DNA of 38,974 nt from Lachnospiraceae bacterium (GTDB taxonomy: Bacteria; Bacillota; Clostridia; Lachnospirales; Lachnospiraceae), in contig JAFQZU010000015.1 of NCBI GenBank assembly GCA_017405805.1, positions 1 to 38,974 of the forward strand, written 5' to 3'. Shown piece after piece: positions 3,273 through 19,460 of the stretch. A model generated the notes under the pieces. That model did not search any database. It was not told the origin of the DNA and was given only the letters and a program-made list of their open reading frames with translations. Positions within the stretch are counted from its first letter, which is position 1; each line of letters begins with the position of its first letter. The position numbers and the translations under genes are program-made.

Positions 3273-3307
3273 TTGCTGCCTCCAAGTTTTTTACTATCAT
3301 ATCAATT

Positions 3308-3835: not shown

Positions 3836-3874
3836 GAAGCGCTCAAGGCAGAGATTGGAACCGTATGCTGCATA

Positions 3875-4456
3875 CTACACTTCGGAATTCATTTCCTCAT
3901 CGTACTCAGAAACTTCTTTCCGGAATGCTTCTTTGAAATCCTCATTCCAATCTGAAAATGTCTTCCCTGTGTTCACTGCATCCCGGAAGCCTTCGATCAC
4001 CTCGCGGATCATACCGGAGAAATCGGGAAACTGATTTCCATAGGAACGCATCCAGCTGTAAAGGCCGGCATTTTTGTATATGGAGAGCGCATCCAGCTGT
4101 TCGCGCGTTGCCGTGTAGCCGGATCCGGCCAGTCTTCTCTGCATAGCAGCCTGAAGTCCTTTCTTCAGATTCTCTGTTTCCTTCTCTCCCGGAAGGCCAT
4201 CCCGGTTCATTCGGAAGAGTAAGGCTGCAGTCGCATAGTAGGTCGGAATAAAAAGAAATCCCACCCGGAAATCTGCCGGTGCCTGGATATCGTCGATCAC
4301 ACGAAAGGAACCGTCCTCTCGCTGCAGACCGAATAGTTCGGCGGCGAGTTTGGTGCGGTATTTGCTGTCTGAAGAAGACGAGCTAAGCATTTCATCGTAA
4401 AGATTTTTGACTCTGTCGATGGCAGTTACGTAAGTGGATATCTTGTTTTTCTTCAT
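3875..4456 (-). CDS. Unrecognised 193-residue protein ending in an in-frame TAG before a cyclotransferase domain
   Basis: A mostly helical soluble protein beginning MKKNKISTYVTAIDRVKNLY behind a good AAGGAGAAACGCT ribosome site. I do not recognise the family. Notable features are a polar SSSSSD stretch near residue 25, a segment FRVIDDIQAPADFRVGFLF, and a charged C-terminus (SEYDEEMNSEV). The stop TAG at 3877-3875 is followed in the same frame by YAAYGSN, the start signature of a gamma-glutamylcyclotransferase domain, so this ORF may be the N-terminal half of one longer protein (about 384 codons). The regulator gene lies 113 bp upstream with a dyad between them. Confidence 0.65.
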   Translation of the reverse strand: MKKNKISTYVTAIDRVKNLYDEMLSSSSSDSKYRTKLAAELFGLQREDGSFRVIDDIQAPADFRVGFLFIPTYYATAALLFRMNRDGLPGEKETENLKKGLQAAMQRRLAGSGYTATREQLDALSIYKNAGLYSWMRSYGNQFPDFSGMIREVIEGFRDAVNTGKTFSDWNEDFKEAFRKEVSEYDEEMNSEV

Positions 4457-4550
4457 AGCGTTTCTCCTTGATGTTTTTAATAACCTGCAAAAACAGTGTT
4501 TTGCAATTGCTCTTCATGGTGAAATCATAGCAAAATCAAGGGATTCAAGT

Positions 4551-4567
4551 TGGAACATAAAGTTCCA
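4551..4567. promoter_or_regulatory. Candidate operator dyad between regulator and its downstream gene
   Basis: A perfect 6-bp dyad, TGGAAC-ATAAA-GTTCCA, lies directly after the regulator stop codon and about 100 bp ahead of the next minus-strand gene. A TATGAT box (minus strand, about 4530-4525) follows it. It could be a binding site for the regulator encoded next door, or a weak hairpin. Inference only. Confidence 0.35.
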
Positions 4568-4569
4568 CC

Positions 4570-5661
4570 TTACTCTATGAAGAGAATCTGTTCTTTGGTA
4601 AAACAGATTGGCTCTTTTCCCTCGCGGACCGCGGTGTAGCGGACTGCTCCGTCCTCATTCCAGGAGATCCGGATGATTGCCTGATCAAGGATCATTGTGC
4701 CGTTTTCTGCAGAAAGTGTAAGGCGGCAGATCCTGCCGGCCTTGAAGCAATACATCAGCATCTCGTCCATGCTCAGTGATGTTTCTTCCCGCATCTCACG
4801 CTCGGTACAGAAATGATCTGCCGTCGTTTCATCCGGACAGTCATCATCAAGGATCTCTACAAATCGTGCTACCGCAGGATCTCCGGGCGTAAAAACCGCC
4901 CTTACCCTTTCACGCCCATACTCTGAAAGCTGACTCCAGATCTCCATGCCGACAATGTAACTGATGTCGTTAATATGTTCTGTATAATTGCGGGCGAGTG
5001 ACTGGATCAGGGTCCCTGCCTGCAGTACGTTTTCCTGCAGGATAATCGGATGCATCGTATTGGGCGTATAGTAGCGCGTTTTCTTTTCCCCGCGCTTACG
5101 TAAAGCGGCAATCTTCACCTGGACCGGCTGTCCCCCGATACGAAGCACTTCGTCAGACTGTCTGGAATCCCCCAGTGAGTGGTCCAGTTTTGCAAGGTTC
5201 TTCAGGACAGCCCGTTCCGTGATCCCCAGATACTGTGCCATGTCTTCTTTGGTAACGCCTTCCCTGGAATGCAGCATGCGAACCATGGCAACGGCCGTAT
5301 CACTGCCCTTTCGCAGAAAGCTCTCAGGGTAAAGGGGATCTTCAATTCCATATCTTTTGGCGATCTCCCTCAGCCATAGGAGGAATTTCTCACGGATCCG
5401 CTGTTTTACCGCATATCTGGCCGGGAAATCATCTGCGTATTCCTCAAGGCTTCCGCATATCAGCTGGAAGGCAAGCTGATATCGCTGCTCTGGCTTCCCG
5501 GGTCCTGTTACACGCATGGCATCTGCATTCCGTCTGAGGATCTGATCCAATGAATGATAGGCATTGCCAATATAATAGTGGAATTCTTGCAGCGGTTTTT
5601 TGTAAGGGTTTGTGGAAGACAGCATCTCCGCAGCATCGTTGAAGACGGCAGTACCGTTCAT
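4570..5661 (-). CDS. Helix-turn-helix transcriptional regulator with WYL-like C-terminal part
   Basis: A 363-residue protein. A central winged-helix segment at about residues 131-165 (LHSREGVTKEDMAQYLGITERAVLKNLAKL) is the likely DNA-binding part. The C-terminal third (MDEMLMYCFKAGRICRLTL ... IRISWNEDGAVRYTAVREG) has the strand-rich layout of a ligand-sensing WYL-type domain, though I do not see a clean WYL triplet. The N-terminal ~110 residues are helical and unrecognised. The start ATG at 5661 lies about 10 bp after a GGGGG-type ribosome site (AAAGGGGGTAG on the minus strand). It heads the minus-strand run 5661-2577 and may control it. Confidence 0.55.
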   Translation of the reverse strand: MNGTAVFNDAAEMLSSTNPYKKPLQEFHYYIGNAYHSLDQILRRNADAMRVTGPGKPEQRYQLAFQLICGSLEEYADDFPARYAVKQRIREKFLLWLREIAKRYGIEDPLYPESFLRKGSDTAVAMVRMLHSREGVTKEDMAQYLGITERAVLKNLAKLDHSLGDSRQSDEVLRIGGQPVQVKIAALRKRGEKKTRYYTPNTMHPIILQENVLQAGTLIQSLARNYTEHINDISYIVGMEIWSQLSEYGRERVRAVFTPGDPAVARFVEILDDDCPDETTADHFCTEREMREETSLSMDEMLMYCFKAGRICRLTLSAENGTMILDQAIIRISWNEDGAVRYTAVREGKEPICFTKEQILFIE

Positions 5662-5730
5662 ATTTTCTACCCCCTTTCTTACTCATCATATCCTACCAGG
5701 GTTTGATCTTCAAATAACAAAAAGGAGTGC

Positions 5731-5759
5731 TTGACGCAGAAGATAATCCTCTCTATACT
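5731..5759 (+). promoter_or_regulatory. Consensus sigma-A-type promoter for the riboswitch transcript
   Basis: TTGACG (5731-5736) and TATACT (5754-5759) are separated by exactly 17 bp. Transcription would begin about 5766, immediately before the riboswitch P1 strand. Confidence 0.75.
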
Positions 5760-5765
5760 AAAAAC

Positions 5766-5876
5766 CAACCTATAAGGAGTGCGCGAGAGACAAGCTCGTT
5801 GACCGCACAGCAACCTGCCGGGGAGACCCGGTAAGGTGCTAATGCTTGAACGATAGGGGAACATGGATTATGCCGG
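5766..5876 (+). ncRNA. SAM-clan (S-box-like) riboswitch lacking stem P4
   Basis: The core of S-adenosylmethionine riboswitches is readable. P1 is CCTAT (5769-5773) with ATAGG (5853-5857). P2 is GTGCG (5779-5783) with CGCAC (5804-5808), with a kink-turn-like cGA / TTGAC internal loop. The conserved AGCAACC follows (5809-5815), then a P3 hairpin CCGGG-GAGA-CCCGG and the conserved AAGGTGCTAA (5833-5842). The P2 loop CAAGC (5791-5795) is complementary to GCTTG (5844-5848), the expected pseudoknot. A normal SAM-I would have a P4 hairpin next; here P1 closes at once, as in SAM-IV or SAM-I/IV types. A terminator follows, but the downstream genes are not recognisable methionine or SAM genes. Confidence 0.8.
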
Positions 5877-5877
5877 T

Positions 5878-5910
5878 AAGCACCTGTCGTGACGATGGGT
5901 GCTTTTTTTG
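5878..5910 (+). terminator. Riboswitch expression-platform terminator
   Basis: AAGCACC (5878-5884) pairs with GGTGCTT (5898-5904), followed by a T-run to 5909. Its left arm can also compete with aptamer sequence containing AGGTGCT (5834-5840), giving a plausible antiterminator switch. It lies 58 bp before the first downstream gene. Confidence 0.8.
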
Positions 5911-5967
5911 CTGCCTCCGCTCTCCTTACGGGATGTACACCGTTTAAAACAGCGAAAGGAGAACACG

Positions 5968-6360
5968 ATGAAGGCAAAAAAAAGAACCGTAGCGGCACTT
6001 CTGCATGTAAAGAAAGCGGGAGAAAAGAAGAAGCGTCAGAAGAATGCGCTGGAATTTCCAAAGCATATCTATATTCACTGCCGGAGCAGGGCCATCGCAA
6101 TGCGCTTCCTGAAAGATGCAGAAGCAGAAGGGTTCCTGTTCAGCAATGGAATAAAGCCTACTGAAAAGGAACCCGACGATATTTACGCGCTGAACAGTGA
6201 CTTCACCATCAGTTATACGGGCATGTTTCCGCACATGATGTTCGGCGGAGGCGGAGACAATGTCATCTGGATCGACTACGGAAACTACATCAGCGGGGCA
6301 AAGGATTTTCAGACGGTCAAACGCCGGATGTGGGGCTGCGGTGCTGCGCTCACCAAGTAA
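5968..6360 (+). CDS. Unrecognised basic protein downstream of the SAM-clan riboswitch
   Basis: A 130-residue protein, start chosen at ATG 5968 behind AAAGGAGA; an ATG 69 bp further upstream (5899) lies inside the terminator and has no ribosome site. The N-terminus is highly basic (MKAKKRTVAALLHVKKAGEK, then KKKRQKN). It is followed by a compact alpha/beta region with HIYIHCRSRAIAMRFLKDAE, a segment containing YALNSDFTISYTG, and a glycine-rich turn FGGGGDNVIWIDYGNY. I recognise no family and assign no function. It is the first gene after a SAM-sensing leader, so its expression is probably tied to SAM levels. Confidence 0.6.
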   Translation: MKAKKRTVAALLHVKKAGEKKKRQKNALEFPKHIYIHCRSRAIAMRFLKDAEAEGFLFSNGIKPTEKEPDDIYALNSDFTISYTGMFPHMMFGGGGDNVIWIDYGNYISGAKDFQTVKRRMWGCGAALTK

Positions 6361-6437
6361 TAAGGTGATACAGCTGTTTTCCGTATAACAGCAATCTCCC
6401 GATTGTGATAAGATTATATACACGAAAGGAATTTACA

Positions 6438-7154
6438 ATGACTGAAAAAGAGCTTATCAATTACACCGCATCAGAAATCGCTGACGTAAACGGGATCCGC
6501 ATGCACTATGCAAGAGTCGGGGCGGGACGCCCGATCGTGCTGATCCATGGGAATGCGGAGGATCACAATCTGTTCCGCATGGAGATCGGGCAGTTGGTCC
6601 GCGCCGGTTTTGAAGTCTTTGCGCCCGATTCCCGGGGGCACGGCGCCAACGAGCCGATGCCGGAGTATCACTATGACGAAATGGCAGAGGATATCTATCA
6701 GTTCATCCGTGCCATGGGACTTGAGAAGCCCGCGGTCTACGGGCACAGTGACGGAGGTATTCTCGCCCTTATGATCGAGCTCCGCCATCCCGGCACGATC
6801 GGCGTTATGGCGCTCAGCGGTACCAATCTCTCCCCGGAAGGGATCATACCGGACTTCGTGGAGGAGTATACACAGCGCAATCAAAAGAGCCCGGATCCGC
6901 TTGTCACGTTAATGCTGACAGAACCCCATATCGATCCTAAATCGCTGCAGCGCATCACGATCCCGGTCCTGGTCACGGTCGGAGATAACGATCTGATCCT
7001 GCGGTCTGAGACCGATCAGATCATGGCCAACCTGCCCAATGCGGAACTGGTCGTCGTGGAAGACGCGGATCACGGAAGCTATATCGTGGACAGCGAGGTG
7101 ATGGGGCATCTCCTGATTGATTTTCTGTGCAGGAAGGACGCAGTCAATGTATGA
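6438..7154 (+). CDS. Alpha/beta-hydrolase
   Basis: A 238-residue single-domain serine hydrolase. The oxyanion motif is VLIHGNAEDHN (about residues 35-45), the nucleophile elbow is GHSDGG (Ser near 103), the acid is in VTVGDNDLI (Asp near 185), and the catalytic His is in DADHGSY (about 215). The start is ATG 6438 behind GAAAGGAA; an earlier in-frame ATG at 6405 gives an unsupported 11-residue extension. Family members include non-haem haloperoxidase-like enzymes and esterases; substrate unknown. The stop overlaps the next ORF by 8 bp, so the two are coupled. Another promoter between 6361 and 6437 cannot be excluded. Confidence 0.85.
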   Translation: MTEKELINYTASEIADVNGIRMHYARVGAGRPIVLIHGNAEDHNLFRMEIGQLVRAGFEVFAPDSRGHGANEPMPEYHYDEMAEDIYQFIRAMGLEKPAVYGHSDGGILALMIELRHPGTIGVMALSGTNLSPEGIIPDFVEEYTQRNQKSPDPLVTLMLTEPHIDPKSLQRITIPVLVTVGDNDLILRSETDQIMANLPNAELVVVEDADHGSYIVDSEVMGHLLIDFLCRKDAVNV

Positions 7155-7437
7155 TTGGGATCATAACGGGAAAGTCGATCTGAACGACGGTTTCATACAG
7201 GATGAGATCGAGAGCAGGCACACGGGCGCTGGCGGCAGTAACGCGGGAAGCGGCGCCGGCGGAGGCGGCACTGGCTCCGGCGGCGCAGGTTCCGGCGGCT
7301 GCTGCATCTTTATCCTTTTAATACCGGTTTTGATCATATTTTTTTTCGCTGCCGCAACGAATGCGCCGGGCGAAGTATACAAGTTCATTTTTTTCCTGTT
7401 CATAGCGGCGGTGCTTTTGGGCACGCTGATCAATTAG
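7147..7437 (+). CDS. Small EF-hand-like, Gly-rich, membrane-anchored protein
   Basis: A 96-residue protein starting MYDWDHNGKVDLND. The 12-residue stretch DWDHNGKVDLND matches an EF-hand/dockerin-type calcium loop: Asp1, Asp3, Asn5, Gly6, Val8, Asp12. A low-complexity Gly/Ser linker (about residues 28-56) follows, then CC and two hydrophobic segments (IFILLIPVLIIFFFAAA and FIFFLFIAAVLLGTL). The start overlaps the hydrolase stop by 8 bp, which argues for translational coupling. I know of no defined function; a membrane-tethered calcium-binding tail is inference. The Gly-rich linker lowers certainty, but the EF loop and membrane segments support a real gene. Confidence 0.65.
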   Translation: MYDWDHNGKVDLNDGFIQDEIESRHTGAGGSNAGSGAGGGGTGSGGAGSGGCCIFILLIPVLIIFFFAAATNAPGEVYKFIFFLFIAAVLLGTLIN

Positions 7438-7459
7438 AACTCAAAAACGGAACAGAACT

Positions 7460-8575
7460 ATGACCGAGAAAAAGGTAGAATACCTGGAGCTGATCTACGA
7501 CCTGATCTTCGTCTATATCATCGGCCGCAACAACTCCATGCTCATGAATATCGAGAACGGGTTTGTAAAAGGCTCTGTTTTTGCGGCTTATGTGCTCTGC
7601 ACGCTGGCTGTCATACAGATCTGGAACTACTCCACCTACTATATGAATCTGTACGGCCGCAACAGTGTCCGGGACCACGTCTTTTTGTTCATCAATATGT
7701 ATCTTCTCTATTATGTCGGAGAGGGGATACGGGTTCACTGGGAACAGTACCAGACCCAGTTTCACATTGCCTGGGCGCTGATCCTGATCAATATCGGCAT
7801 CCAGTATGCGATCGAGATGCGGCACCACCGGGACGAACCGGCTGCCCTGCAGACCATTAAGGGGCTTATGACGGCGCTTTTTGGCGAGGCGGCGATCGTT
7901 CTTCTGACGATCCCCGTCCTGAAAATGACCGGTTTTCCCCTGGCTGCCCTGGCGATTCTATTCGGAATGGCCGCTTCCTGGTTTCTCACGGGGCCCTACA
8001 AGACCTCCCGGATCGATTTCAATCACCTGTCCGAGCGCGCCATGCTGTATGTGGTATTTACCTTCGGGGAGATGATCATCGCCGTCGCCTCCTACTTCGA
8101 GGAGGGCTTTAACCGGTCCTCCGTGTATTTCTCCCTCATGTGCTTTCTGATCGTCGCGGGTCTTTTTTTGAGCTATGAGATCTTTTACAACAAGATCCTG
8201 GACAGGAACCGGGAGACCTCCGGCATGCGCTTTATGATGATCCACATCTTCCTCATCTTCAGCATGAACAACATCACGACGTCGCTGGAGTTCATGCGGA
8301 ACCCGGACATTTCGGTCTGGCCCAAGACGCTCTTTCTGACGGGGTCCTTTCTCCTGTTTTTTGCCTGCCTCTTCGCTCTCCTTTTCTTTGCCAAGGCAGA
8401 ACTGGACCAGTGCAAGCGGTTTATGATCCCCATCGCGGGGATCTCCGCGGTTTTTGCGGTGCTCATGATCCTGCTCCGGGAAGAGATGCGCATAAATATA
8501 CTGATCTCTGTCATCTACGTGTATATTGTCTTTCTGGCAATCTACTATTTCAGCATGCGGGAAGTGCAAGCTTAG
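7460..8575 (+). CDS. LtrA-family (low temperature requirement) membrane protein
   Basis: A 371-residue polytopic membrane protein. The N-terminal motif KVEYLELIYDLIFVYIIGR is the LtrA signature (E-L-x-D-L-x-F-V). About ten hydrophobic segments follow, and an internal stretch AMLYVVFTFGEMIIAVASYF matches the second conserved LtrA block (FGE). The molecular role of the family is not established; its name comes from a cold-growth phenotype in Listeria. It begins 22 bp after the small EF-hand protein with only a weak ribosome site (AACGGAACAG), so it probably belongs to the same riboswitch-led transcript. Length is typical. Confidence 0.8.
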   Translation: MTEKKVEYLELIYDLIFVYIIGRNNSMLMNIENGFVKGSVFAAYVLCTLAVIQIWNYSTYYMNLYGRNSVRDHVFLFINMYLLYYVGEGIRVHWEQYQTQFHIAWALILINIGIQYAIEMRHHRDEPAALQTIKGLMTALFGEAAIVLLTIPVLKMTGFPLAALAILFGMAASWFLTGPYKTSRIDFNHLSERAMLYVVFTFGEMIIAVASYFEEGFNRSSVYFSLMCFLIVAGLFLSYEIFYNKILDRNRETSGMRFMMIHIFLIFSMNNITTSLEFMRNPDISVWPKTLFLTGSFLLFFACLFALLFFAKAELDQCKRFMIPIAGISAVFAVLMILLREEMRINILISVIYVYIVFLAIYYFSMREVQA

Positions 8576-8633
8576 CGGGCTGCTATGCTATAATAATAAA
8601 GTAGCCATTCACGCACCATCGGGAGGTCTCTCC

Positions 8634-9056
8634 ATGGAAAATCCCATCTACCGAAAAAAGAGTCTGGACCGGATCTCTTCCCCGGAAGCACTCAGCGATT
8701 ATCTCCACGTCACCAATCCCGCCGTATGGATGATTCTGGCGGCGGTTCTGTTCCTGCTTGTCGGAATGCTGATCTGGAGCAGCATCGCCAGCATCGACAG
8801 CTTTGCGTCCGGAATCGCGCATGTGGAAGACGGCAAAATGTACATCGAGTTTGAAAACGAGCAGATCGCGCGGAACGTGCAGAGCGGCATGACCGTCACC
8901 GTCGGGGAGACGCAGACCAGCATCACGAGCGTCGGACGCGACAGTAAGGGCGACGTCTTCGCCGTGGCGCCGGCGCCGCCGTCCCTTGCGGAAGGGTATT
9001 ATGTTGCGGACGTCCTGTTCCGGCAGACGCAGGTGATACGGCTCCTGTTCAACTAA
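8634..9056 (+). CDS. Short HlyD-like accessory protein of an NHLM/NHLP-type peptide exporter
   Basis: A 140-residue protein starting MENPIYRKKSLDRISSPEAL behind GGGAGG. The sequence up to LHVTNPAVWMILAAVLFLLV is the characteristic N-terminus of NHLM bacteriocin-system secretion proteins, with one transmembrane helix at about residues 29-50. The periplasm-side part is only about 90 residues (IASIDSFASGIAHVEDG ... GMTVTVG), with beta strands like one half of a biotinyl-lipoyl hairpin, far shorter than full HlyD adaptors of 300 residues or more. A TATAAT box at 8589-8594 sits upstream. It precedes two ABC exporters and probably forms their accessory subunit. Confidence 0.75.
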   Translation: MENPIYRKKSLDRISSPEALSDYLHVTNPAVWMILAAVLFLLVGMLIWSSIASIDSFASGIAHVEDGKMYIEFENEQIARNVQSGMTVTVGETQTSITSVGRDSKGDVFAVAPAPPSLAEGYYVADVLFRQTQVIRLLFN

Positions 9057-9131
9057 AGAACGGGCGCCGCCTGAAGAGGCGGAGGACTCCCCGACTGAGT
9101 TGAACGGAGTAAGCAGACAGAGGTAACGCAT

Positions 9132-11321
9132 ATGCCTGATTCAAAAACGCAAGGCTCTTCCATAAAAATGCGCAGGAAACGCACCCGCGTCCCTGTGATC
9201 ATGCAGATGGAGGCTCTGGAGTGCGGCGCCGCCGCGCTCGCCATGGTCATGGCCTACTACGGGAAGTGGGTGCCCCTGGAGCAGGTGCGCCTGGACTGCG
9301 GCGTCTCGAGAAACGGCTCCAACGCGCGGAACATGCTCGCTGCGGCAAGAGGGTACGGATTTGAGGCGGAAGGCTTTAAGTGTGAGCCGGAAAACCTCCG
9401 CGACGACATGATCCTGCCCTGCATCATTCACTGGAATTTCAATCATTTTGTCGTTCTGACCGGGATCAGCGACAAGTACGCCTGGATCAATGATCCTGCC
9501 AAGGGCGATATCAGGCTCCCCATCGAGGAGCTGGATCTCGCCTTTACCGGCGTTTGCATCCAGATCAAGCCGGGACCGGATTTCCATCCTTCCGGAAAGC
9601 CCAAGAGCGTCCTGGACTTCGCGAAAAGCCGCCTGAAAGGCGCGGGGACGGCGGCCGCCTTCGTTCTGCTCTCCTCGCTGGCGGGATGTCTGTTCGGCAT
9701 CATCAATCCCGCCTTTGTCCGCTTTTTCCTGGACCGGCTCCTCACCGGTGAAAACCCGGAGCTCCTGACCCCGTTCCTGGGTCTGATGCTCCTTCTGGGC
9801 ACGGCACAGGTGGCCGCGGCCTGGATCCAGGGGATATACGCTCTCAAGATCAACGGCAAAATGGCCGCCATCGGCAACAGCGAATACATGTGGAAGATCC
9901 TGCGGCTCCCCATGGATTTCTTCACGCAGCGCCTTGCGGGCGATATCCTGCAGCGGCAGACTACCAATGCGTCCATCGCCTCCACGCTCGTGAATATGGC
10001 GGCCCCGCTCCTTCTGAACGGGCTGATGATGATCGTCTATCTCGTGTTCATGCTGCGCTACAGCGTTCTCCTGACCCTGATCGGGATCATAACAGTCGTC
10101 CTCAATCTCCTCGTCTCACAGATCGTCACCGCCAAAAGAGTCAACATCACCCGCGTGCAGCTGCGCGACGCCGGCAAGCTCGCGGCAGCGACCGTCTCCG
10201 GCTTCCAGATGGTGGAGACCATCAAGGCCAGCGGCGCCGAAAACGGGTATTTCCAAAGATGGTCCGGCTTTCAGGCCTCCGTCAATAAACAGACCGTCCG
10301 CGCTGACCGGCTCAGCCGGTATCTGGGCATCATTCCCGCCGCGCTCTCTGCCGCGGCGAACGCGCTGGTCCTGATCCTGGGCGTTTTTCTCACCATGCAG
10401 GGACGGTTCTCCCTCGGCAGTATCATGCTGTTCCAGGGGTTTCTGGGCTCCTTCATGGCGCCGGCGGGAAGCATCATTTCCGTCGGGCAGCGCCTGCAGG
10501 AAATGCGCACGGACATGGAGCGCGTGGAAGACGTCATGAAGTATCCCGATGACCCGGTCATGAACGACGTCCCCTTATCGGAGGACAGGGACTACAACAA
10601 GCTGTCCGGGGAAGTGGAGCTTCGGGGTGTCACTTTCGGATACTCCAAGCTGGAGGCGCCTCTGATCAGGGACTTTTCCATGCATGTAAAGCCCGGGAGC
10701 CGCGTGGCGCTGGTGGGCCCTTCCGGCTGCGGAAAATCCACCCTCTCCAAGCTGATTTCCGGACTCTGCCAGCCCTGGAGCGGCGAAGTCCTCTACGACG
10801 GAAAGCCGGTCTCCGAGATCGACCGCAGTATTTTCACGGGCTCCATCGCGGTCGTGGACCAGGAGATCGTCCTCTTTGAAGATACGATCGAGAACAACAT
10901 CAAGATGTGGGACAACTCCATCGAGGACTTCGAGATGATCCTCGCTGCAAGGGACGCGCAGATCTATGACGATATCATGGCGCGGGAAGGCGGGTTTCAG
11001 GGAAAACTGACCGAAAACGGCAAGGACCTCTCCGGCGGGCAGCGGCAGCGCCTGGAGATCGCCCGTGCGCTGGCCCAGGATCCGACCATCATTATCATGG
11101 ACGAAGCGACGTCCGCCCTGGACGCCAAAACAGAGTACGAACTGGTCAAGGCCGTAAAGGACCGCGGGATCACCTGCATCGTCATCGCGCACCGCCTGTC
11201 CACGATCCGCGACTGCGACGAGATCATCGTACTGGATCACGGCATTGTCACGCAGCGCGGGACCCACGAGCAGCTGATGGCTGAAGGCGGCGATTACGCG
11301 ATGCTGATCGCCAGCGACTGA
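9132..11321 (+). CDS. NHLP-type bacteriocin export ABC transporter with C39 peptidase domain (PCAT)
   Basis: A 729-residue peptidase-containing ABC exporter. The N-terminal C39 cysteine protease domain (1-150) has Gln25 and Cys31 (Q-MEALE-CG), His105 (WNFNHFVVL) and Asp121 (NDPAKG), the full catalytic set for cutting after double-glycine leaders. Six transmembrane helices span roughly 165-430. The ATPase domain carries Walker A GPSGCGKST, signature LSGGQRQR, Walker B TIIIMDEATSALD and the H-loop IVIAHRLST, all intact. The 75-bp gap after the accessory gene contains a small GC hairpin. Together with the next gene it should form the exporter for the double-glycine PepSY protein at 13738. Confidence 0.93.
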   Translation: MPDSKTQGSSIKMRRKRTRVPVIMQMEALECGAAALAMVMAYYGKWVPLEQVRLDCGVSRNGSNARNMLAAARGYGFEAEGFKCEPENLRDDMILPCIIHWNFNHFVVLTGISDKYAWINDPAKGDIRLPIEELDLAFTGVCIQIKPGPDFHPSGKPKSVLDFAKSRLKGAGTAAAFVLLSSLAGCLFGIINPAFVRFFLDRLLTGENPELLTPFLGLMLLLGTAQVAAAWIQGIYALKINGKMAAIGNSEYMWKILRLPMDFFTQRLAGDILQRQTTNASIASTLVNMAAPLLLNGLMMIVYLVFMLRYSVLLTLIGIITVVLNLLVSQIVTAKRVNITRVQLRDAGKLAAATVSGFQMVETIKASGAENGYFQRWSGFQASVNKQTVRADRLSRYLGIIPAALSAAANALVLILGVFLTMQGRFSLGSIMLFQGFLGSFMAPAGSIISVGQRLQEMRTDMERVEDVMKYPDDPVMNDVPLSEDRDYNKLSGEVELRGVTFGYSKLEAPLIRDFSMHVKPGSRVALVGPSGCGKSTLSKLISGLCQPWSGEVLYDGKPVSEIDRSIFTGSIAVVDQEIVLFEDTIENNIKMWDNSIEDFEMILAARDAQIYDDIMAREGGFQGKLTENGKDLSGGQRQRLEIARALAQDPTIIIMDEATSALDAKTEYELVKAVKDRGITCIVIAHRLSTIRDCDEIIVLDHGIVTQRGTHEQLMAEGGDYAMLIASD

Positions 11322-11332
11322 AAGGAGGCGGC

Positions 11333-13516
11333 ATGGGCTGGTTTGACGAACAGATCCTCCAGCGCAAGCGCTCGGATCAGGAGATCATGGAAGAATCCCT
11401 TTTCCACATCGCCTCCTCGATACTGGGAAGGCAGCAGGCAGGGCATCTCCACGATGAACGCATTATCACGAAGCACGCTCTGGAAGAACTATTAAAATAC
11501 TACCACTTAAAAGCCCCCGAGATCCCGGAAGAGATGACGGAACTGGAGGAGCAGCTGGAATTCTGCATGCAGCCGCACGGGCTCATGTGGCGGAAGGTGG
11601 ACCTGGAAGATGGCTGGTACCGGGATTCCATGGGGCCCCTTCTGGCTTTTCGGAAGGAAGACGGCACGGCGGCCGCGCTTCTGCCGGGCGCACTTTCCGG
11701 CTACTGCTACCGCGACCCGCAGAGCGGCAAAACATGCCGCATCAACAAAAAAACCGCAGCACAGTTCGAGGAGGAGGGCATCTGCTTTTATCACCCGCTG
11801 CCCCTTAAAAAACTCGGCGTCGGGGATCTTCTGCTTTACCTGAAGAACTGTCTGGACGCGAGCGATTTTGCCGTGTTCTTTGCCCTGGCCTTTGCCGTGA
11901 CTATACTGGGCATGCTGATGACCAATATCACCCGCGCGCTGACCGGCTTCGTTCTGGAGAGCAAAGATGTCCCTCTCCTGCTGGGGACAGCGATCTTCAT
12001 GCTCTCCACCCTCCTTGCCTCTCAGCTCATCAGTACATCCCGGCAGATGATGATGAGCCGGATCCGGATCAAGGCCTCGCTGGCCATGGACGCCGCGATC
12101 ATGATGCGCATCATGAACCTGCCGCCGCGCTTCTTCAGGCAGTACGCCTCCGGTGATCTCTCCACGCGGTACGGCGCCATCGGGCAGTTCTGCGACCTCC
12201 TTTTGGGAAATGTGTTCTCGACGGGGCTGAGCGCACTTTTATCCATGCTCTACATCACGCAGATGTTTCACTACGGACCTGCCCTGGCCGGACCTGCCCT
12301 GCTCATCATCGCGGCGGGCATCCTCCTCAGCCTTCTCTCCGGCTTCACGCAGATGCGCATCAGCCGGGAGATCGTCGAGAAAAACGCAAAGGAATCCGGT
12401 CTGAGCTTTGCCCTGATCAGCGGCGTGCAGAAGATCCGGCTCTCCGGATCGGAGAAACGGGCCTTCGCCAGGTGGGGACACGCTTACGCCGACGCGGCGG
12501 AGCTCACCTACAATCCGCCCCTGCTGATCCGCGTGAGCGGCGCCATCTCCATTGCCATCTCCCTGATCGGCACGGTCGCGCTCTTTTACCTGGCAGTGGA
12601 CAGCGAACTGTCGCCCTCGGAGTATATCGCTTTCAGTACGGCTTACGGGGCGGTATCGGCCTCTTTTGGCGCGCTGACCGGGGCTGCGCTGTCCGTGGCG
12701 GGAATCCGGCCCATTCTGGACGTGGCGGAACCCATCCTGCAGACGGAGCCGGAGGCCTCGGAAAACCGTACCCTGGTCCGGAAGCTGGACGGGAACATCG
12801 AACTTTCCAACGTCTTCTTCCGCTATGACAGGAATATGCCCTGGGTCATTAAAGGGCTCAGTCTCAAGATCAACGCCGGGGATTACGTCGCGATCGTAGG
12901 CTCCACCGGCTGCGGCAAAAGCACGCTCGTCCGTCTTCTTCTCGGCTTCGAAAAGCCGGACAAAGGCGCCGTCTACTACGACGGAAAGGATATAGCCACC
13001 CTCAATCTCCACTCCCTGCGCCGCCGGATCGGGACCGTCACGCAGGACGGCAGCCTGTTCCAGGGCGACATCTTCTCCAATATTGCCATCTCTGCTCCGC
13101 AGATGACGCTCGACGAGGCCTGGGAGGCGGCTGAGCTGGCTGGGATCGCCGACGACATCCGCGCCATGCCCATGGGCATGCAGACGCAGATTTCAGAGGG
13201 ACAGGGAGGAATTTCGGGAGGCCAGAAGCAGCGTCTGATGATCGCGCGGGCCGTGGCGCCCAAGCCGGAGATCCTGATTTTGGACGAGGCGACGTCCGCC
13301 CTGGACAACCGCACGCAGCAGCAGGTGTCCGAGGCGCTCGACAAGATGGGCTGCACCCGCATCGTGATCGCTCACCGCCTTTCCACCATCCGCAACTGCA
13401 GCCGCATCCTTGTCCTGGACAAGGGCCGCATCCTGGAGGACGGCACCTATGAGGAGCTCATCGCGCGCAATGGATTTTTCGCGGAACTGATCGCGAGACA
13501 GCGGCTGGACGCGTGA
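11333..13516 (+). CDS. Second NHLP-type export ABC transporter (permease/ATPase)
   Basis: A 727-residue ABC exporter 11 bp after the PCAT gene, with its ribosome site AAAGGAGG inside the gap. Residues 1-170 form a family-specific cytoplasmic domain instead of a peptidase; no C39 Cys/His pair is seen. Transmembrane helices occupy about 180-440. The ATPase has Walker A GSTGCGKSTL, signature ISGGQKQRL, Walker B ILILDEATSALD and H-loop IVIAHRLST. Such paired NHLM ABC1/ABC2 genes are known to accompany ribosomally made peptides with Nif11 or nitrile-hydratase leaders; here neither leader type is present, but a double-glycine cargo is. No terminator is obvious before 13560. Confidence 0.92.
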   Translation: MGWFDEQILQRKRSDQEIMEESLFHIASSILGRQQAGHLHDERIITKHALEELLKYYHLKAPEIPEEMTELEEQLEFCMQPHGLMWRKVDLEDGWYRDSMGPLLAFRKEDGTAAALLPGALSGYCYRDPQSGKTCRINKKTAAQFEEEGICFYHPLPLKKLGVGDLLLYLKNCLDASDFAVFFALAFAVTILGMLMTNITRALTGFVLESKDVPLLLGTAIFMLSTLLASQLISTSRQMMMSRIRIKASLAMDAAIMMRIMNLPPRFFRQYASGDLSTRYGAIGQFCDLLLGNVFSTGLSALLSMLYITQMFHYGPALAGPALLIIAAGILLSLLSGFTQMRISREIVEKNAKESGLSFALISGVQKIRLSGSEKRAFARWGHAYADAAELTYNPPLLIRVSGAISIAISLIGTVALFYLAVDSELSPSEYIAFSTAYGAVSASFGALTGAALSVAGIRPILDVAEPILQTEPEASENRTLVRKLDGNIELSNVFFRYDRNMPWVIKGLSLKINAGDYVAIVGSTGCGKSTLVRLLLGFEKPDKGAVYYDGKDIATLNLHSLRRRIGTVTQDGSLFQGDIFSNIAISAPQMTLDEAWEAAELAGIADDIRAMPMGMQTQISEGQGGISGGQKQRLMIARAVAPKPEILILDEATSALDNRTQQQVSEALDKMGCTRIVIAHRLSTIRNCSRILVLDKGRILEDGTYEELIARNGFFAELIARQRLDA

Positions 13517-13648
13517 TTTACCACATGTTTTCCGCACATTGAGGATATTTACAAAACTGCACAAGTAAACCGTGGAATACCGGGGAGAGCCTCGTATATT
13601 AATGTGAAAACAAACTATATATTCATCGATATTCTACTAAAAATGTGC

Positions 13649-13682
13649 TATGATGGATATGAAATTTGACATATCTGTCAAA
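13649..13682 (+). promoter_or_regulatory. Candidate promoter (-10) and overlapping dyad ahead of the PepSY cargo gene
   Basis: TATGAT (13649-13654) could be a -10 box; no good -35 is visible. Immediately downstream is a perfect dyad TTTGACA-TATC-TGTCAAA (13665-13682), about 55 bp before the cargo start codon and placed where a repressor would block transcription. The 220-bp spacer suggests that the cargo gene has its own promoter separate from the exporter. Confidence 0.45.
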
Positions 13683-13737
13683 ACAAACACACTGCAGCCA
13701 AGGCGGATATGTCCCACAAAAAAAGGAGGTCTATACC

Positions 13738-14004
13738 ATGGCAAATCCTGAAAAACTCAGTGATGAAATGATGGAGCAGGTTGCGGGCGGAACTCTCACA
13801 AAAGATGAAGCTCTGGAAAAAGCTCTGGCACACGCACACCTCAAGAGAAATGAGGTCGACTATGTAAAGAAGGTCGAACTCGACTACGAGCATGGAAGAA
13901 AGGTCTATGAGGTCTCCTTCTACAAGAATGGGTACGAGTATGAGTATGACATCGATGCGGAGACCGGTAAGGTTCTGAAAGCTGAGAAGGATCTTGACGA
14001 TTAA
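13738..14004 (+). CDS. Double-glycine leader protein with a PepSY-domain cargo
   Basis: An 88-residue protein starting MANPEKLSDEMMEQVAGG behind a strong AAAGGAGG; the earlier in-frame ATG at 13666 lies in the operator region. The leader has the LSDEMMEQVAGG pattern recognised by C39 peptidases, with cleavage expected after Gly18. The predicted cargo (19-88, 70 residues) is a complete PepSY domain: helix TKDEALEKALAHAHL, then strands YVKKVELDYEHGRKVYEVSF, YEYEYDIDAETGKVL. It has no Cys and few Ser/Thr, so lanthionine-type modification is unlikely, and no modifying enzyme is nearby. PepSY domains are known protease inhibitors or propeptide modules; a secreted inhibitor or signal is inference. 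Confidence 0.85.
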   Translation: MANPEKLSDEMMEQVAGGTLTKDEALEKALAHAHLKRNEVDYVKKVELDYEHGRKVYEVSFYKNGYEYEYDIDAETGKVLKAEKDLDD

Positions 14005-14037
14005 GCATTGCATGATGATTATGAAATAAAGACTTTA

Positions 14038-14079
14038 AGCGGGGGCTGTCTGAACACGATCAGACAGCTCCCGCTTTTT
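14038..14079 (+). terminator. Strong intrinsic terminator after the PepSY cargo gene
   Basis: GCGGGGGCTGTCTG (about 14039-14052) pairs with CAGACAGCTCCCGC (14061-14074) with one mismatch around an 8-nt loop, followed by TTTTT. It ends the export cluster. Confidence 0.9.
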
Positions 14080-14175: not shown

Positions 14176-14676
14176 ATGAAGTGGAAATTTAGTGACAGCG
14201 CCCCGATCTATCTTCAGATCGTGAGCGGCCTGCAGAAGGCGATCATTAACGGGACCTACCCGCCGGGATCCCGCCTCCCTTCCGTGCGGGAACTGGCACT
14301 GGAAGCAGGCGTCAACCCCAATACCATGCAGCGGGCCCTTGCGGAGCTCGAGCGCGCATCCCTGGTTTATTCGGTGCGGACCAGCGGACGTTTTGTCACC
14401 GACGATACCGCGGTGCTGGCCTCCCTGCGAAAAGATTTGGGGAGCTCTATCATAGAGGAATTCTTTTCCTCCCTGCGCGCCATCGGAATGACCGACCGGG
14501 AAATCCTGGAGGCAGTCTCCCGCCGCGTGGACGCGGGCGGTTTGACAGACGGCGCTGCGGCGGTGCAGTCAGCTTCGCAGCCAACGGCCCCATCGAAAGC
14601 GCAGTCAGCCTCGCAGCCAACGTCCCCATCAACAGCGCAGTCAGCGGAAACAGCGATCGGAGGTACTTATGAATAA
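14176..14676 (+). CDS. GntR-family (YtrA-type) transcriptional regulator
   Basis: A 166-residue regulator. Residues 1-75 form the GntR winged helix: PIYLQIVSGLQKAIINGTY, PPGSRLPSVRELALEAGVNP, NTMQRALAELERASLV, then the wing RTSGRFV. The short helical tail (about 80-120) is the YtrA-type dimerisation part. It is extended by a low-complexity tail of two 12-residue repeats (AQSASQP-TAPSK / -TSPST) that other YtrA proteins lack. Its end overlaps the ATPase start by 8 bp. In known systems such regulators repress their own ABC operon and respond to cell-envelope antibiotics or peptides; here it follows a peptide export locus, so a similar role is plausible. Confidence 0.9.
   Translation: MKWKFSDSAPIYLQIVSGLQKAIINGTYPPGSRLPSVRELALEAGVNPNTMQRALAELERASLVYSVRTSGRFVTDDTAVLASLRKDLGSSIIEEFFSSLRAIGMTDREILEAVSRRVDAGGLTDGAAAVQSASQPTAPSKAQSASQPTSPSTAQSAETAIGGTYE
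14565..14648 (+). repeat. 36-bp in-frame tandem repeat in the GntR gene tail
   Basis: Two units of 36 bp (14565-14600 and 14601-14636) and a partial third beginning GCAGTCAGC encode AQSASQPTAPSK, AQSASQPTSPST and AQSA. The units differ at only a few bases, so the expansion looks recent and copy number may vary between strains. Confidence 0.85.
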
Positions 14677-15406
14677 CGAAATGGAATTACATTCGGGCGG
14701 CACGCCCGCGCTGGAATGCCGGGCACTCCGAAAAGAATACGGCAGGACCGTGGCCCTGCAAAATGTTAATCTCTCTCTGCAGAGCGGACGGATCGTCGGT
14801 CTGGTGGGCCCCAACGGCAGCGGCAAAACAACACTGATCAAGCTGGCCCAGCACCTTCTGGTCCCCACGGAAGGGGAGATCCGTATCCTGGGCATGGAGC
14901 CCGGCCCGGAGACGAAGGCGCTCGTCTCCTATCTGCCGGACAGGGATTTTCTTCCGCAGTGGATGGACCTGAACGGACTGTTGGAATTCTACTGCGATTT
15001 TTACGCGGACTTCCGACCGGACAAGGCTCAGGAAATGCTGAATGCCCTGCACATTGATTCAAAACTCCCCCTTGGCCGCATGTCTAAGGGAACGAGGGAA
15101 AAAGTCCAGCTCATTCTGACCATGAGCCGGGAGGCCAGGGTCTATCTGTTGGACGAACCCATCGCCGGCGTGGATCCCGCCACGAGAGAATACATTCTCC
15201 ACACCATTCTTTCCGGCTATACAAGCGACGCCCTGATGGTGATCTCCACCCACCTGATCACGGATGTGGAGCCGATCCTCGAAGAAGTAGTCTTCCTGCA
15301 GAACGGAAGCGTCGCACTGCACGAAAACACCGATGCGCTTCGCCAGCGCACCGGCATGAGTATTGACGGTTATTTCCGGGAGGTGTACAGATGCTGGGAA
15401 AACTAA
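14669..15406 (+). CDS. ABC transporter ATP-binding protein
   Basis: A 245-residue ATPase with Walker A GPNGSGKTTLI (about residues 49-59), a degenerate signature MSKGTREKV, Walker B VYLLDEPIAGVDP and H-loop STHL. The KGT signature and the YtrB/CcmA-like layout fit drug or bacitracin-type exporters regulated by GntR proteins. The N-terminus (MNNEMELHSGGTPALECRAL) overlaps the regulator gene, and the 3' end overlaps the permease gene by 16 bp, so all three are coupled. The transported substrate is not evident. Confidence 0.92.
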   Translation: MNNEMELHSGGTPALECRALRKEYGRTVALQNVNLSLQSGRIVGLVGPNGSGKTTLIKLAQHLLVPTEGEIRILGMEPGPETKALVSYLPDRDFLPQWMDLNGLLEFYCDFYADFRPDKAQEMLNALHIDSKLPLGRMSKGTREKVQLILTMSREARVYLLDEPIAGVDPATREYILHTILSGYTSDALMVISTHLITDVEPILEEVVFLQNGSVALHENTDALRQRTGMSIDGYFREVYRCWEN

Positions 15407-16206
15407 TCTATTATGAAACCAAAGCCTTCGGGCGCATCATGCTGCCCCTCTATGCGGCCGCCCTTGCCTTCTCCCTTTTTATGGGACTAGGGCTGCGCAT
15501 TATTCCCGCGGATCTTCTGGAGGGTCTGCCTTATATCCTGATGTTTATGATCTATACCTTCCTGATCCTGGCAGTCATGATCATGACCGGGGTCCTTTCC
15601 GTCACCCGCTTTTACAACAATCTGCTGGGCCGTGAGGGCTATCTGATGTTCTCTCTTCCCACGGGTACGCTTTCCCTGATCGGATCCAAAGTCATCAGTG
15701 TCCTGATCTGGTCTGCGCTGAGCGGCCTGGCCGCCCTGCTCACGGTCATTTTGTGCGGCCTCGGCGCCGGAGGAATGTATTTTCTGAGAGAGATCCCGTC
15801 ACTGTTCCGCTTCCTTGCGGAGTGGAAGGATCTGCCTTCCGCACTGGCGCTCACCGGGACCACCCTGGTTTTTCTCGCCGTGACCGCCGCCGCTTCGATC
15901 GTGCGGATCTACGCAGCCATTGCCATCGGTCATCAGTTCAACGGCCACCGGATCGCCTGGAGCGTCGTCGCCTATATCGCTTTTCAGATCATCGAGACAA
16001 TGATCGGCTCCCTCTTCGGACTCTTTGCTCATTCCATGAGTCCCTTTGAAACGTGGGTCGAATCCTTCAGCCGCTTTTTTGAAGCAGAGACGGTCTCCGC
16101 CATGCTTCTTGTGGAGTGGTGGGCAGTCCTTGGGAGCGCAGTCTTCATCGTGATCTTTGGGCTGCTGACGTGGTTTTTGCTGGATCGGAGGTTGAATTTA
16201 GAGTGA
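15391..16206 (+). CDS. ABC transporter permease
   Basis: A 271-residue membrane protein with about six hydrophobic segments in the ABC-2-type arrangement, beginning MLGKLIYYETKAFGRIMLPLY behind GGGAGG within the ATPase gene. A conserved-looking FYNNLLGREGYLMFSLPTG follows the second segment, a pattern I associate with Firmicutes YtrC/D-like permeases next to YtrA regulators. It should pair with the preceding ATPase. Its stop codon overlaps the stop of the convergent phosphatase gene by 9 bp, and no terminator is seen between them. Confidence 0.85.
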   Translation: MLGKLIYYETKAFGRIMLPLYAAALAFSLFMGLGLRIIPADLLEGLPYILMFMIYTFLILAVMIMTGVLSVTRFYNNLLGREGYLMFSLPTGTLSLIGSKVISVLIWSALSGLAALLTVILCGLGAGGMYFLREIPSLFRFLAEWKDLPSALALTGTTLVFLAVTAAASIVRIYAAIAIGHQFNGHRIAWSVVAYIAFQIIETMIGSLFGLFAHSMSPFETWVESFSRFFEAETVSAMLLVEWWAVLGSAVFIVIFGLLTWFLLDRRLNLE

Positions 16207-19200
16207 GTTCTTCCCCTTATACTCCACACACAGCATCGTGATATCATCAAACTGCTCCGCATCCTTCACAAATGCATCCACCGCATTCATCACGTTTTCC
16301 AAAAGCTTCCTGGGCGCCGCATCCGCGTCCTTGTTCAGGGCATCGATCATGCGGTCCAGACCGAACATGTTGTCCTTTTTATCCGCCGCCTCCGGCACGC
16401 CGTCCGTGTACACGAACAGTTTGTCACCGGGCTCCATCGCGATCTCATATTCGCTGTACGACGTGTCTTCCATGGCGCCGATCACGAGTCCGTGCTTATC
16501 CTTCAGGATGCTGAACTCTCCGTTTCTCCTTCGAATGGCCGGATACTCGTGGCCTGCGTTGGCTGCCGAGATGATACCGGTACTGATTTCCAGAATACCG
16601 ACCCATACCGTGATGAACATTTCGTGCTTGTTGTTGGAACAGATCGCCTCGTTGGTTTTGGTAAGGATCTCCCCCGCGGACGCACCCAGCATCGCGCAGC
16701 TCTGGACGATGACTTTGGAGACCATCATAAAGAGTGCGCCGGGGATCCCTTTTCCGCTCACGTCTGCAATGACCATGCACAGATGATCGTCATCGATCAT
16801 GAAAATATCGTAAAAATCGCCCCCGACCTCTCTGGCCGGATCCATCACCGCGTAGATGTCAAACTCATCTCTTCCGGGGACAGGAGGAAAATCATGTACG
16901 AGCATGCCGCTCTGAATCTGACTGGCCATGTTCAGTTCCGTCTTCAGACGCTCTTTTTTCACTTCTTCTTTGTTGCGCTCTTCCAGCAGCCGCGTCTTTC
17001 TCCGGTAATACAGCATGACGAGGAGTCCCGCCGTGAAGATCAGTGCCAGATTGAACAAGACAATGAACCATTTTTCTTCGTAAACCGCCTTTTCCTTGAC
17101 GATCGGGACGGATATGGTTCTGCCGCCCCGCCCCATCGAATCCATCACCCGGATCTCGAACTGATAGGATCCGCCGGGCAGGTTCGTATAGTCCACGGGG
17201 TTCAGATCCGTCCGGCTTACGACCACCGCTTCCCGGTCAAAGCCCTTTAGCTGATAGGCTACTTTCGGATCCGTAAGGGAATAATTATAGACGTAGCTGT
17301 AGATCGTCACTTTTTGCACGTCTGACGAGATCCGAAACCCGCCCTGCGCATCGGGATATGTCCTTATGCCGTCCACATCGATATAGGGCACCGACACCTT
17401 CAGGTCCGCGGTGGTCTCCATGGAGGAATTGATATTGACTTTCGAGACGCCCAAATTGCCGGAGATATACAGATCCCCATCCTCTGTCAGCTCACTGTAG
17501 GAATTGCTTGTCGCAATGGAGGGAAGACCGTTGGCAAGGCCGTAGTGCACCGGCTTCAGATTATCTCCTTTCAGCAGTTCCTCCGTCGGCAGGACGTAGA
17601 TCCCGTCGCTGCTGAGGATCCACATATCGCCTTTATCGTTCTCGTACAGGTCAAAATTGTTGGAGTAGGGGAAGCTGCTAACGGTCGTCAACTGATAGTC
17701 GGACGTCATAAAGGCGATGGAATTACTGGTGATGATCCAGTAGAGATCTCTTGCCGGATCCCGCTTGATCCGCATCACAATGCCGGACGTCAGGCCGTCT
17801 TCCGTTCCGATGCAGCGGGTTCCGTTTTTGCCGATGACATAGATCCCTCCCCCGTTGGATCCCAGCAGGATATCCCCGTTTGCTGCGTTTTCAGACACTG
17901 TCAGGCTCTCCGGATTCACTATGCCGTCTTCTGCCGTATAGGAGCCGGTCACCCGGCCATCTTCGATCACGCTGACGCCCCCTGAACTGACCGCCAGGAA
18001 GGATCCGTCCTCTCTTTCGTACACCATCCTGACATGGTTGGAGACCAGTCCGTCCTTGTCCGTAAACGCAGTCACCGTCCCGCCGTCATAGCACAAAAGG
18101 CCGCAGGCCCGCCAGGTGGAGATCCAGATCCGGCCCTTGCTGTCCCGGATAATGGAACGGACCCTGCATCCGTCCAGCATCTGCAAAAGGTCGCTCTCCT
18201 CAAGATCGGTCCCGGAGGCGCTGCGGGCGCCCGTCAAAGGAAGTTCCCCCACTCTTCCCTTCTCATCCAGGACGATCAGCCCCGTATCAGTGCCGATAAA
18301 AAGTTTGTCGCCGCTTATGCATGTGGAATTGACCACCGTCTCCGGCAGTTCGTACTTCTCAAACAGATCCACAAACCGGTTGGGAACGATCTTCATCACG
18401 CCCTGACGGGTGGAAGTAAACCAGAGATTGCCCTCGTAATCCGCGATAACGTTGCCGACGGAATTTTTCATGGCGAGATCTTCCAGATAGTAGAATTTAC
18501 CGCTCTCGATCACGCCGATCCCGTTCCGGCCGCAGATCCAAATTCTTCCGTTGATCTGTTCGATATCCATGACGCCGAACAAAGGCGCGATATCAAGCTC
18601 CTTTTCGATCAGGAGCCGGTCGCGGCTCACGCTCCCGTAAAAAAACCGGGAATCCTCCGTCCCGAAATACGCTTTTCCGGGATGATCGTCATCCGGGCGG
18701 ATACAGACGATCCCCTTGAGGCTGTTGTCCGCGCTGCTGATATAGCTGATCACTTTCCCGTCCTGCAGCACAAAAATATCGTCATCGCTGCTCATGCCGT
18801 ACAGCTTCCCGTCTTTTCCGGCGACCAGGCTTTCGACGTACATACCGGAGATCCTGGAATCTTCAACGTTATGAAGCGTAAAATCCTCCCCGATAAACTG
18901 GATGCCTTCCACCGTGGCTGCATAGATCATTCCGTCCGTATCCTGCGTGATATCGCTGATCTTATCAGAGCCCATTCCGTCTGCTTTTTTCCAGTGGCGG
19001 ATCTCTCCCCTTTCCATCATGGCGAGTCCGCTGTCATTGGTGCCGATCCACAGCCGGTCGAGGCTGTCCACGAAAAGACATCCCACATTTGCGACGCCCG
19101 TGGTCGAATCCATCCGCTCAAAGGTGTTGCCGTCGTAACGGGTCAGGCCGCTGTAGCTGCCGATCCATATAAAACCGTCCTCCGTCTGCGCAATGTCGTT

Positions 19201-19383: not shown

Positions 19384-19460
19384 CGACTCGCAGCACCTTT
19401 TGAAAGTAAGATCCGACTCATCATCTGTCCAACCAGAAGTATAACACATCTGAACAAGGC

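Follow-up and report, generated by a model that had tools for sequence, protein, structure and literature searches.

The window analyzed here is a 38,974-nucleotide stretch of DNA from a gut bacterium of the Lachnospiraceae (contig JAFQZU010000015.1). It carries four adjoining genes on the forward strand, encoding a small accessory membrane protein, a peptidase-containing ATP-binding cassette (ABC) transporter (PCAT), a second ABC exporter (ABC2), and a protein of 88 amino acids (aa) in which a double-glycine (GG) leader precedes a PepSY domain. All four reading frames lie where a preliminary description of the locus had placed them, and our analysis supports its central proposal that an exporter resembling the nitrile hydratase leader microcin (NHLM) type has this unmodified PepSY mini-protein as its likely cargo. 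The features of the locus are as follows:

8634..9056, + strand: accessory membrane protein of 140 aa with a single membrane-spanning helix and, after it, a beta domain outside the cytoplasm
9132..11321, + strand: PCAT (NHLM ABC1), 729 aa, C39 protease intact; TIGR03796, Peptidase_C39, ABC_membrane and ABC_tran, match to LahT
11333..13516, + strand: ABC2 (NHLM ABC2-like exporter), 727 aa, lacking a peptidase domain; TIGR03797 near its cut-off, ATPase motifs intact
13626..13654, + strand: weak promoter-like site between ABC2 and cargo gene (TCGATA, 17-nucleotide spacer, TATGAT, preceded by TG)
13723..13729, + strand: Shine-Dalgarno-like sequence AAGGAGG
13738..14004, + strand: cargo gene encoding 88 aa, with a PepSY domain behind a GG leader
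13738..13791, + strand: cargo leader MANPEKLSDEMMEQVAGG, 18 residues, with Leu-12, Met-7, Val-4, Gly-2 and Gly-1
13792..14001, + strand: mature PepSY mini-protein, 70 aa, no Cys, order of helix and strands H-E-E-E-E
14037..14076, + strand: intrinsic-terminator-like hairpin 3′ of the cargo gene, 17 pairs followed by a T run

The promoter-like site suggests that the cargo gene may be transcribed separately, but it is not evidence by itself, because three such sites were observed against 1.6 expected in shuffled sequences.

The PCAT passed the cut-off of TIGR03796 (891.8 versus 853.3 bits), whereas ABC2 matched TIGR03797 over its full length just below the cut-off (694.9 versus 709.4 bits) and the accessory protein fell far below that of the NHLM HlyD model TIGR03794 (19.9 versus 156.2 bits), with a match confined to its residues 13–55 and model positions 1–43. 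The assignment to the NHLM type thus stands for the PCAT and is not fully borne out for its two partners. The catalytic residues Gln25, Cys31, His105 and Asp121 of the PCAT are all present, as had been described, at an offset of +4 relative to Gln21, Cys27, His101 and Asp117 of LahT (PMC6363468). Residues 13–147 of the C39 domain aligned with the LahT structure 6mpz (E 6.5e-65), and the Walker A, signature and Walker B motifs are intact in both transporters. With an N-terminal C39 domain containing Gln, Cys, His and Asp, a permease and an ATPase domain, the protein has the architecture that defines the PCAT/AMS (ABC-transporter maturation and secretion) proteins. The accessory protein has four orthologues (58–79% identity). 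Its AlphaFold2 (AF2) model (mean predicted local distance difference test score, pLDDT, 71) consists of a helix at residues 29–51 and strands between 55 and 130 and has no meaningful fold match in the PDB; given this and the partial, sub-cut-off TIGR03794 match, we do not regard it as a full HlyD protein.

The cargo protein scored 52.6 bits against the Pfam family PepSY (PF03413; cut-off 24, E 5.7e-14). Its mature part has 70 residues, 8,241 Da and a pI of 5.0 and contains no Cys, in agreement with the preliminary description. In the AF2 model (mean pLDDT 79.1), a helix (residues 22–32) and four strands follow a disordered leader, so that the protein combines a score above the gathering threshold with the alpha-beta4 fold of PepSY domains. 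The top four PDB matches of this model in Foldseek were all PepSY proteins (the CD1622 lipoprotein, YpmB, a YpmB-MreC model and YpeB), although these matches are weak (E 1.1e-3 to 4.6e-2, none ≤0.001; best TM 0.63), which counts against our interpretation. By sequence, the best PDB match was the chain of 9vy3 annotated “Propeptide, PepSY and peptidase M4” (E 5.4e-6). The precursor models of the nitrile hydratase leader peptides (NHLP, TIGR03793) and Nif11 (TIGR03798) gave no match to the cargo, and a XyeA match was at chance level only (E 0.15).

A scan of genome contigs with the cargo returned 18 loci, and the cargo alignment comprises ten rows including the window, from loci with leader and domain, among which the leaders of L084 and L085 are damaged. 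The ratio of nonsynonymous to synonymous substitution rates (dN/dS) was 0.031 between the window and its nearest relative (L082, the G290 copy, which is cut by a contig end), 0.105 between the window and L083 and 0.107 between L088 and L090; these ratios are rough because synonymous sites are near saturation. The cargo orthologues are under strong purifying selection, and surface residues are invariant among the aligned orthologues, as is the stretch K44–G53. Since relatives keep leader and domain and the nearest pair shows such a low dN/dS, the cargo gene is more than a chance open reading frame (ORF).

Genes combining the leader with a PepSY domain were found in 11 genomes: the window's own, G290, G311 (L083), G312 (L085), G313 (L086), G314 (L087), G315 (L088), G316 (L089), G317 (L090), G428 and G493. 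The exporter adjoins the cargo in four of them (own, G290, G311 and G314), which have the gene order accessory protein–PCAT–ABC2–cargo in common (window, G290, L083, L087). A TIGR03796 PCAT is present in all 11 genomes; by comparison, one occurs in 33 of the 62 genomes sampled from the genus, in 30 of 250 from the family and in 28 of 250 from the family to which G315 belongs. In a tree of PCATs (116 loci submitted, 93 rows entered; “quick” method without bootstrap), the 12 PCATs from these 11 genomes all fell into one clade of 17 rows (support 97), within which those of the four cargo-linked loci are monophyletic (support 100). A stop within the aligned region had removed four loci (L118, L138, L162, L200), and identity or coverage filters had removed 19 more, G259 with its partial PCAT among them. 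The grouping was the same in an earlier, 85-row tree. The linkage of cargo and exporter that the preliminary description had put forward for checking therefore holds as adjacency in only four of 11 genomes, but as co-occurrence with one PCAT clade in all of them. In the wider search for the cargo, 76 of 250 genomes of the family had a match; outside the window's own genome, the best-listed ones are PepSY repeats in longer frames without a leader. Among 21 pattern matches in viral contigs there was no relative.

The same exporter clade also has other GG-leader proteins, so that the earlier view of a solitary system is not supported. In five of the 17 clade loci (G312 L119, G313 L124, G323 L266, G403 L268, G428 L254), we found GG-leader proteins with LysM or CW_7 domains. 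The Cpl-7 lysin binds the cell wall through its CW_7 repeats. These sister cargos, five LysM and five CW_7 proteins of 66–111 residues, consist of one LysM or two CW_7 repeats and little else, without a catalytic domain; all ten exceeded their Pfam cut-offs, out of 17 sister GG proteins scanned. A second NHLM set of accessory protein, PCAT and ABC2 lies on another contig of the window's genome (C6), its PCAT 59% identical to that of the window. About 0.9 kb from it, a 97-aa GG-leader SH3-like protein is encoded (L071, contig C6 8000–27900; 7012–7305, + strand), which stays below the SH3_3 cut-off. The 21 leaders tallied from PepSY, LysM and CW_7 proteins and this SH3-like protein all follow one pattern, with L/I/V/M at –12, L/M/V at –7, V/I at –4 and GG. 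LahT seats Leu-12, Leu-7 and Val-4 of its leader in hydrophobic pockets (PMC6363468), and, judged by its sequence, the cargo leader is a LahT-type GG leader. In view of the sister LysM and CW_7 cargos and the SH3-like protein at the second NHLM pair, the PepSY protein is probably one cargo among several of a route for unmodified wall-type mini-domains.

The survey of GG proteins at PCAT loci returned further candidates. SH3-like GG proteins, so labeled by eye, stand beside PCATs in eight loci of the genus; of three tested, two had sub-threshold SH3_3 matches (18.4 and 18.8 bits; cut-off 27) and one had no match, and the leaders of these cargos weakly match Bacteriocin_IIc. Zinc-ribbon-like GG proteins, also labeled by eye and ending in a CxxC...GGR.xCxxCG motif, are found beside PCATs in nine loci, one of them outside the genus; two of the nine were scanned against Pfam and belonged to no family. 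They lie at:

L118, 6702–6998
L125, 6686–6994
L134, 12568–12897
L135, 518–859
L136, 897–1319
L139, 11068–11481
L145, 3453–3776
L149, 13255–13551
L150, 14433–14825

The GG cargos of L268 (143 aa) and L277 (96 aa) have no Pfam family. The GG-leader proteins of L186 (7500–7781) and L277 (4839–5129) have a common cargo ending like YVWIEQNGSLDGF and are possibly another mini-domain cargo. As is usual for classical NHLM systems, Nif11-like leaders or short GG peptides in several copies are found at other PCAT loci. L133 (G263), with ten GG-leader peptides of 50–61 aa around one PCAT (2329–2514 and 2669–13166), most of them ending in AAI or ASI, is a classical multi-precursor cluster. Near PCATs in L259, L265, L269, L271, L273 and L277, we noted short peptides that have an SGA or SGG leader and share a tail resembling DPFA.TPR.PEQPIDDDLR..G. 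Overall, 38 strict GG-leader ORFs (60–160 aa) were found in 28 of 118 PCAT loci (1,916 kb), some of which had been chosen for holding a cargo. The reversed reading of the same 118 loci gave none, and neither did 55 control loci with leaderless PepSY repeats (L002–L030 and L045–L070; 170 kb), a weak control because only ~3.4 such ORFs would be expected there at the PCAT-locus rate.

Several further observations weigh against our interpretation. The cargo lies apart from the exporter in seven of the 11 genomes, and in G312 its leader has an in-frame stop (L085), yet a clade PCAT is present in the same genome. No GG cargo was detected nearby in eight of the 17 clade loci (L120, L121, L122, L123, L177, L253, L262, L267), and the five clade genomes outside the 11 (G224, G323, G403, G509, G568) have no leader-PepSY gene among the matches listed; for these reasons the exporter does not require a PepSY cargo. 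The LysM and CW_7 proteins are associated with the exporter clade and not with the PepSY gene itself, and wider NHLM loci often have other GG or Nif11-like peptides, or none detected. In the sample from the family of G315 (250 genomes), seven genomes have a clade PCAT, and all three leader-PepSY genomes belong to these seven (hypergeometric 1.4e-5); among the 62 genomes of the genus, the two leader-PepSY genomes both have one (5e-4). These probabilities take no account of kinship, however, and the limits of the clade were set with knowledge of these genomes. Moreover, the genomes are incomplete metagenome-assembled genomes (MAGs), the window's own being 84% complete.

Two same-genus MAGs (85–86% complete) contain remnants of the cargo. 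In G287, accessory codons 1–67 run out of frame into the cargo from codon 25 onward, the transporter genes between them being gone; in G301, the first nine cargo codons are lost, and the cargo sets in within its leader where an unrelated frame has ended. In each of the two genomes one PCAT was found, which falls outside the 17-row clade. As read from these sequences, the remnants fit a decay of the cargo once the exporter is lost, with the leader-broken L085 as a counter-example. Cargo fragments in G259 and G292 were set aside as possible remnants at most, their matches spanning just 53 and 40 residues.

Beyond the cargo gene, the window contains a GntR regulator, an ABC ATPase and a permease-like gene resembling PmtR/PmtA modules (14176–16206), followed on the – strand by the gene for a large sensor that combines Reg_prop with a SpoIIE phosphatase domain (16198–19449). 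We rejected the GntR-ABC-permease genes as candidates for immunity or regulation of the cargo since they are not conserved beside it in relatives: homologues of LtrA, GntR, the ABC ATPase and the permease adjoin the cargo in none of nine loci tested. In L085, the frame just 3′ of the leader-broken PepSY gene (2358–2639) encodes a hydrophobic N-terminal stretch and then a second PepSY-like segment.

The nearest folds to the cargo model, YpmB/TseB, YpeB and CD1622, belong to longer membrane proteins or lipoproteins, whereas the cargo consists of its GG leader and one domain with nothing added. Another homologous transporter is PCAT1 of Clostridium thermocellum, whose cargo is CtA. PCAT1 cleaves and exports the 66-residue CtA, which is described as unstructured and flexible in the channel (PMC6959990). 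The cargo of the window resembles CtA as a PCAT-exported small protein of ~70 residues behind a GG leader; unlike it, CtA is not connected with PepSY in the cited passages, and PCAT1 (4ry2) is only a distant homologue of our PCAT. NHLM exporters were defined together with NHLP and Nif11 precursors as a three-gene system (TIGR03794/03796/03797; Haft 2010, PMC2887384). The locus shares with them the PCAT above TIGR03796, the TIGR03797-type ABC2 near its cut-off and a membrane protein in the HlyD position, but its accessory protein, with only 140 aa, is a miniature that lies outside TIGR03794, and its cargo has neither a nitrile hydratase or Nif11 leader match nor a modifying enzyme nearby. No enzyme for ribosomally synthesized and post-translationally modified peptides was found among the neighbors scanned with Pfam and NCBIfam in the window, L071, L083 and L087, as the preliminary description had stated for the window. 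LahT of Lachnospiraceae bacterium C6A11 is similar in the C39 domain over its length, the catalytic residues and leader positions –12, –7 and –4, but serves nine Nif11-type lanthipeptide precursors (PMC6363468) instead of one short leader on a PepSY domain. Like EbfG of Synechococcus elongatus (PMC4997328) and the bacteriocin-type signal proteins of T. denticola (PMC11879956), our system involves unmodified GG-motif export without bacteriocin action shown; those proteins differ in belonging to other families, and the text of the T. denticola paper mentions no PepSY, LysM or SH3. PCAT export of unmodified GG proteins is thus already known from CtA, EbfG and the T. denticola proteins. By titles and beginnings of abstracts in the open literature (subscription papers lay outside this scope), PepSY, LysM or CW_7 proteins as PCAT cargo were not found; two archaeal papers (PMC6393860, PMC4158269) combine PepSY with C39 or double-glycine terms.

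Based on these observations, PCATs of this clade very probably process the GG-PepSY protein and carry it out of the cell. The C39 domain would bind the leader via Leu-12, Met/Leu-7 and Val-4 and cut after Gly-Gly (Gly18). The unfolded 70-residue chain would then be driven across the membrane by the PCAT, perhaps paired with ABC2 in a heteromer and with help from the membrane protein. Cleavage after Gly18 and export of this chain are expected by analogy because the LahT pockets and PCAT1 transport are known; the flexible CtA speaks against the initial suggestion that the protein is exported folded. Outside, the chain would fold as a PepSY domain with no modifying enzyme required, stay in the envelope and bind a conserved cell-wall partner, which could be a hydrolase, a synthase or the wall itself. 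PepSY would be one cargo of a PCAT clade otherwise serving stand-alone peptidoglycan-binding modules (LysM, CW_7).

Export of the PepSY cargo is well supported by these data; its function we infer from related domains. LysM binds peptidoglycan (PMC4004799), the PepSY protein YpeB is tied to and holds the cortex-lytic enzyme SleB, and CopD, in whose paper PepSY is frequent, regulates two penicillin-binding proteins (PMC10653890), a loose parallel because this contact runs through transmembrane segments. Together with the wall binding of CW_7, these examples favor an envelope role among the possible functions, namely binding or restraining a wall enzyme. Action at the envelope, argued by such analogies, appears to us an evenly balanced proposition, and restraint of a wall enzyme as the way it works is a tentative suggestion that may well prove wrong. 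As a whole, the explanation that the accessory, PCAT, ABC2 and cargo genes form one export unit and that the product has a wall partner seems reasonably likely. A broader idea, which we rate as speculative and rather unlikely, is that this NHLM-type PCAT branch is a general secretion route for bare wall modules (PepSY, LysM, CW_7, SH3-like) in rumen-type Clostridia. The released modules would occupy wall sites or cap wall enzymes as a secreted decoy system, protecting the peptidoglycan of the producer against hydrolases, be they its own or foreign ones like the phage lysins targeted by CW_7 or LysM.

Protease inhibition and signaling had been the functions suggested originally, and no result points specifically to either. 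Still, the PepSY protein could be a secreted protease inhibitor or propeptide-like chaperone that caps extracellular proteases of the producer or its neighbors. PepSY is a domain of M4 peptidase propeptides, as the 9vy3 match recalls, and a family of PepSY-like proteins from Bacteroides has been described as resembling a beta-lactamase inhibitor protein (PMC2954215). However, the cargo has no protease gene as a constant companion, the other window neighbors being kept in none of the nine loci tested, and its sister cargos belong to wall-binding and not to inhibitor families, which makes this explanation improbable. A class II-type bacteriocin, with the PepSY, LysM, CW_7 and SH3-like cargos killing or inhibiting competitors via wall binding, is a still weaker candidate. 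A GG leader with a PCAT is typical of class II bacteriocins (PMC6363468) and present here, wall-binding modules would supply a target, and the Bacteriocin_IIc-like leaders of SH3-like cargos point the same way. Against this, the cargo shows strong purifying selection and invariant surface residues instead of a rapid divergence, and no small immunity gene is kept adjoining it, going by the window neighbors tested in nine loci and by inspection of other small ORFs by eye. Moreover, we know of no PepSY domain acting as a toxin. It is very doubtful that the PepSY protein is a signal sensed by neighbors: GG-leader/PCAT pairs do export pheromones, the cargo is small, and a weak site points to a probable promoter of its own, but no receptor or kinase gene is kept with it and folded domains of 70 residues are unusual as pheromones. 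Equally hard to credit is that the PepSY gene stands beside the exporter by chance and that the true substrate is a modified peptide from another locus, as the NHLP and Nif11 precursors of NHLM exporters (PMC2887384), the unlinked cargos and the incomplete genome might suggest, since the cargo leader itself appears to match the C39 pockets, the PCAT clade co-occurs in all 11 genomes, and LANC_like had no match in the 84%-complete own genome, in a genome-wide search that did not extend to YcaO, radical SAM or Nif11.

Genome mining uses PCAT/NHLM exporters as markers for modified, antibiotic-like peptides. If the domains exported by this branch are unmodified, foldable and wall-binding, then many of the “bacteriocin” annotations in genomes from gut and rumen would be wrong. 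The branch would, if this is true, represent a Sec-independent route for placing single binding modules on the wall, and its leader-cargo pairs could be used for display or secretion of small folded proteins. It would also offer a handle on the role of stand-alone PepSY domains.

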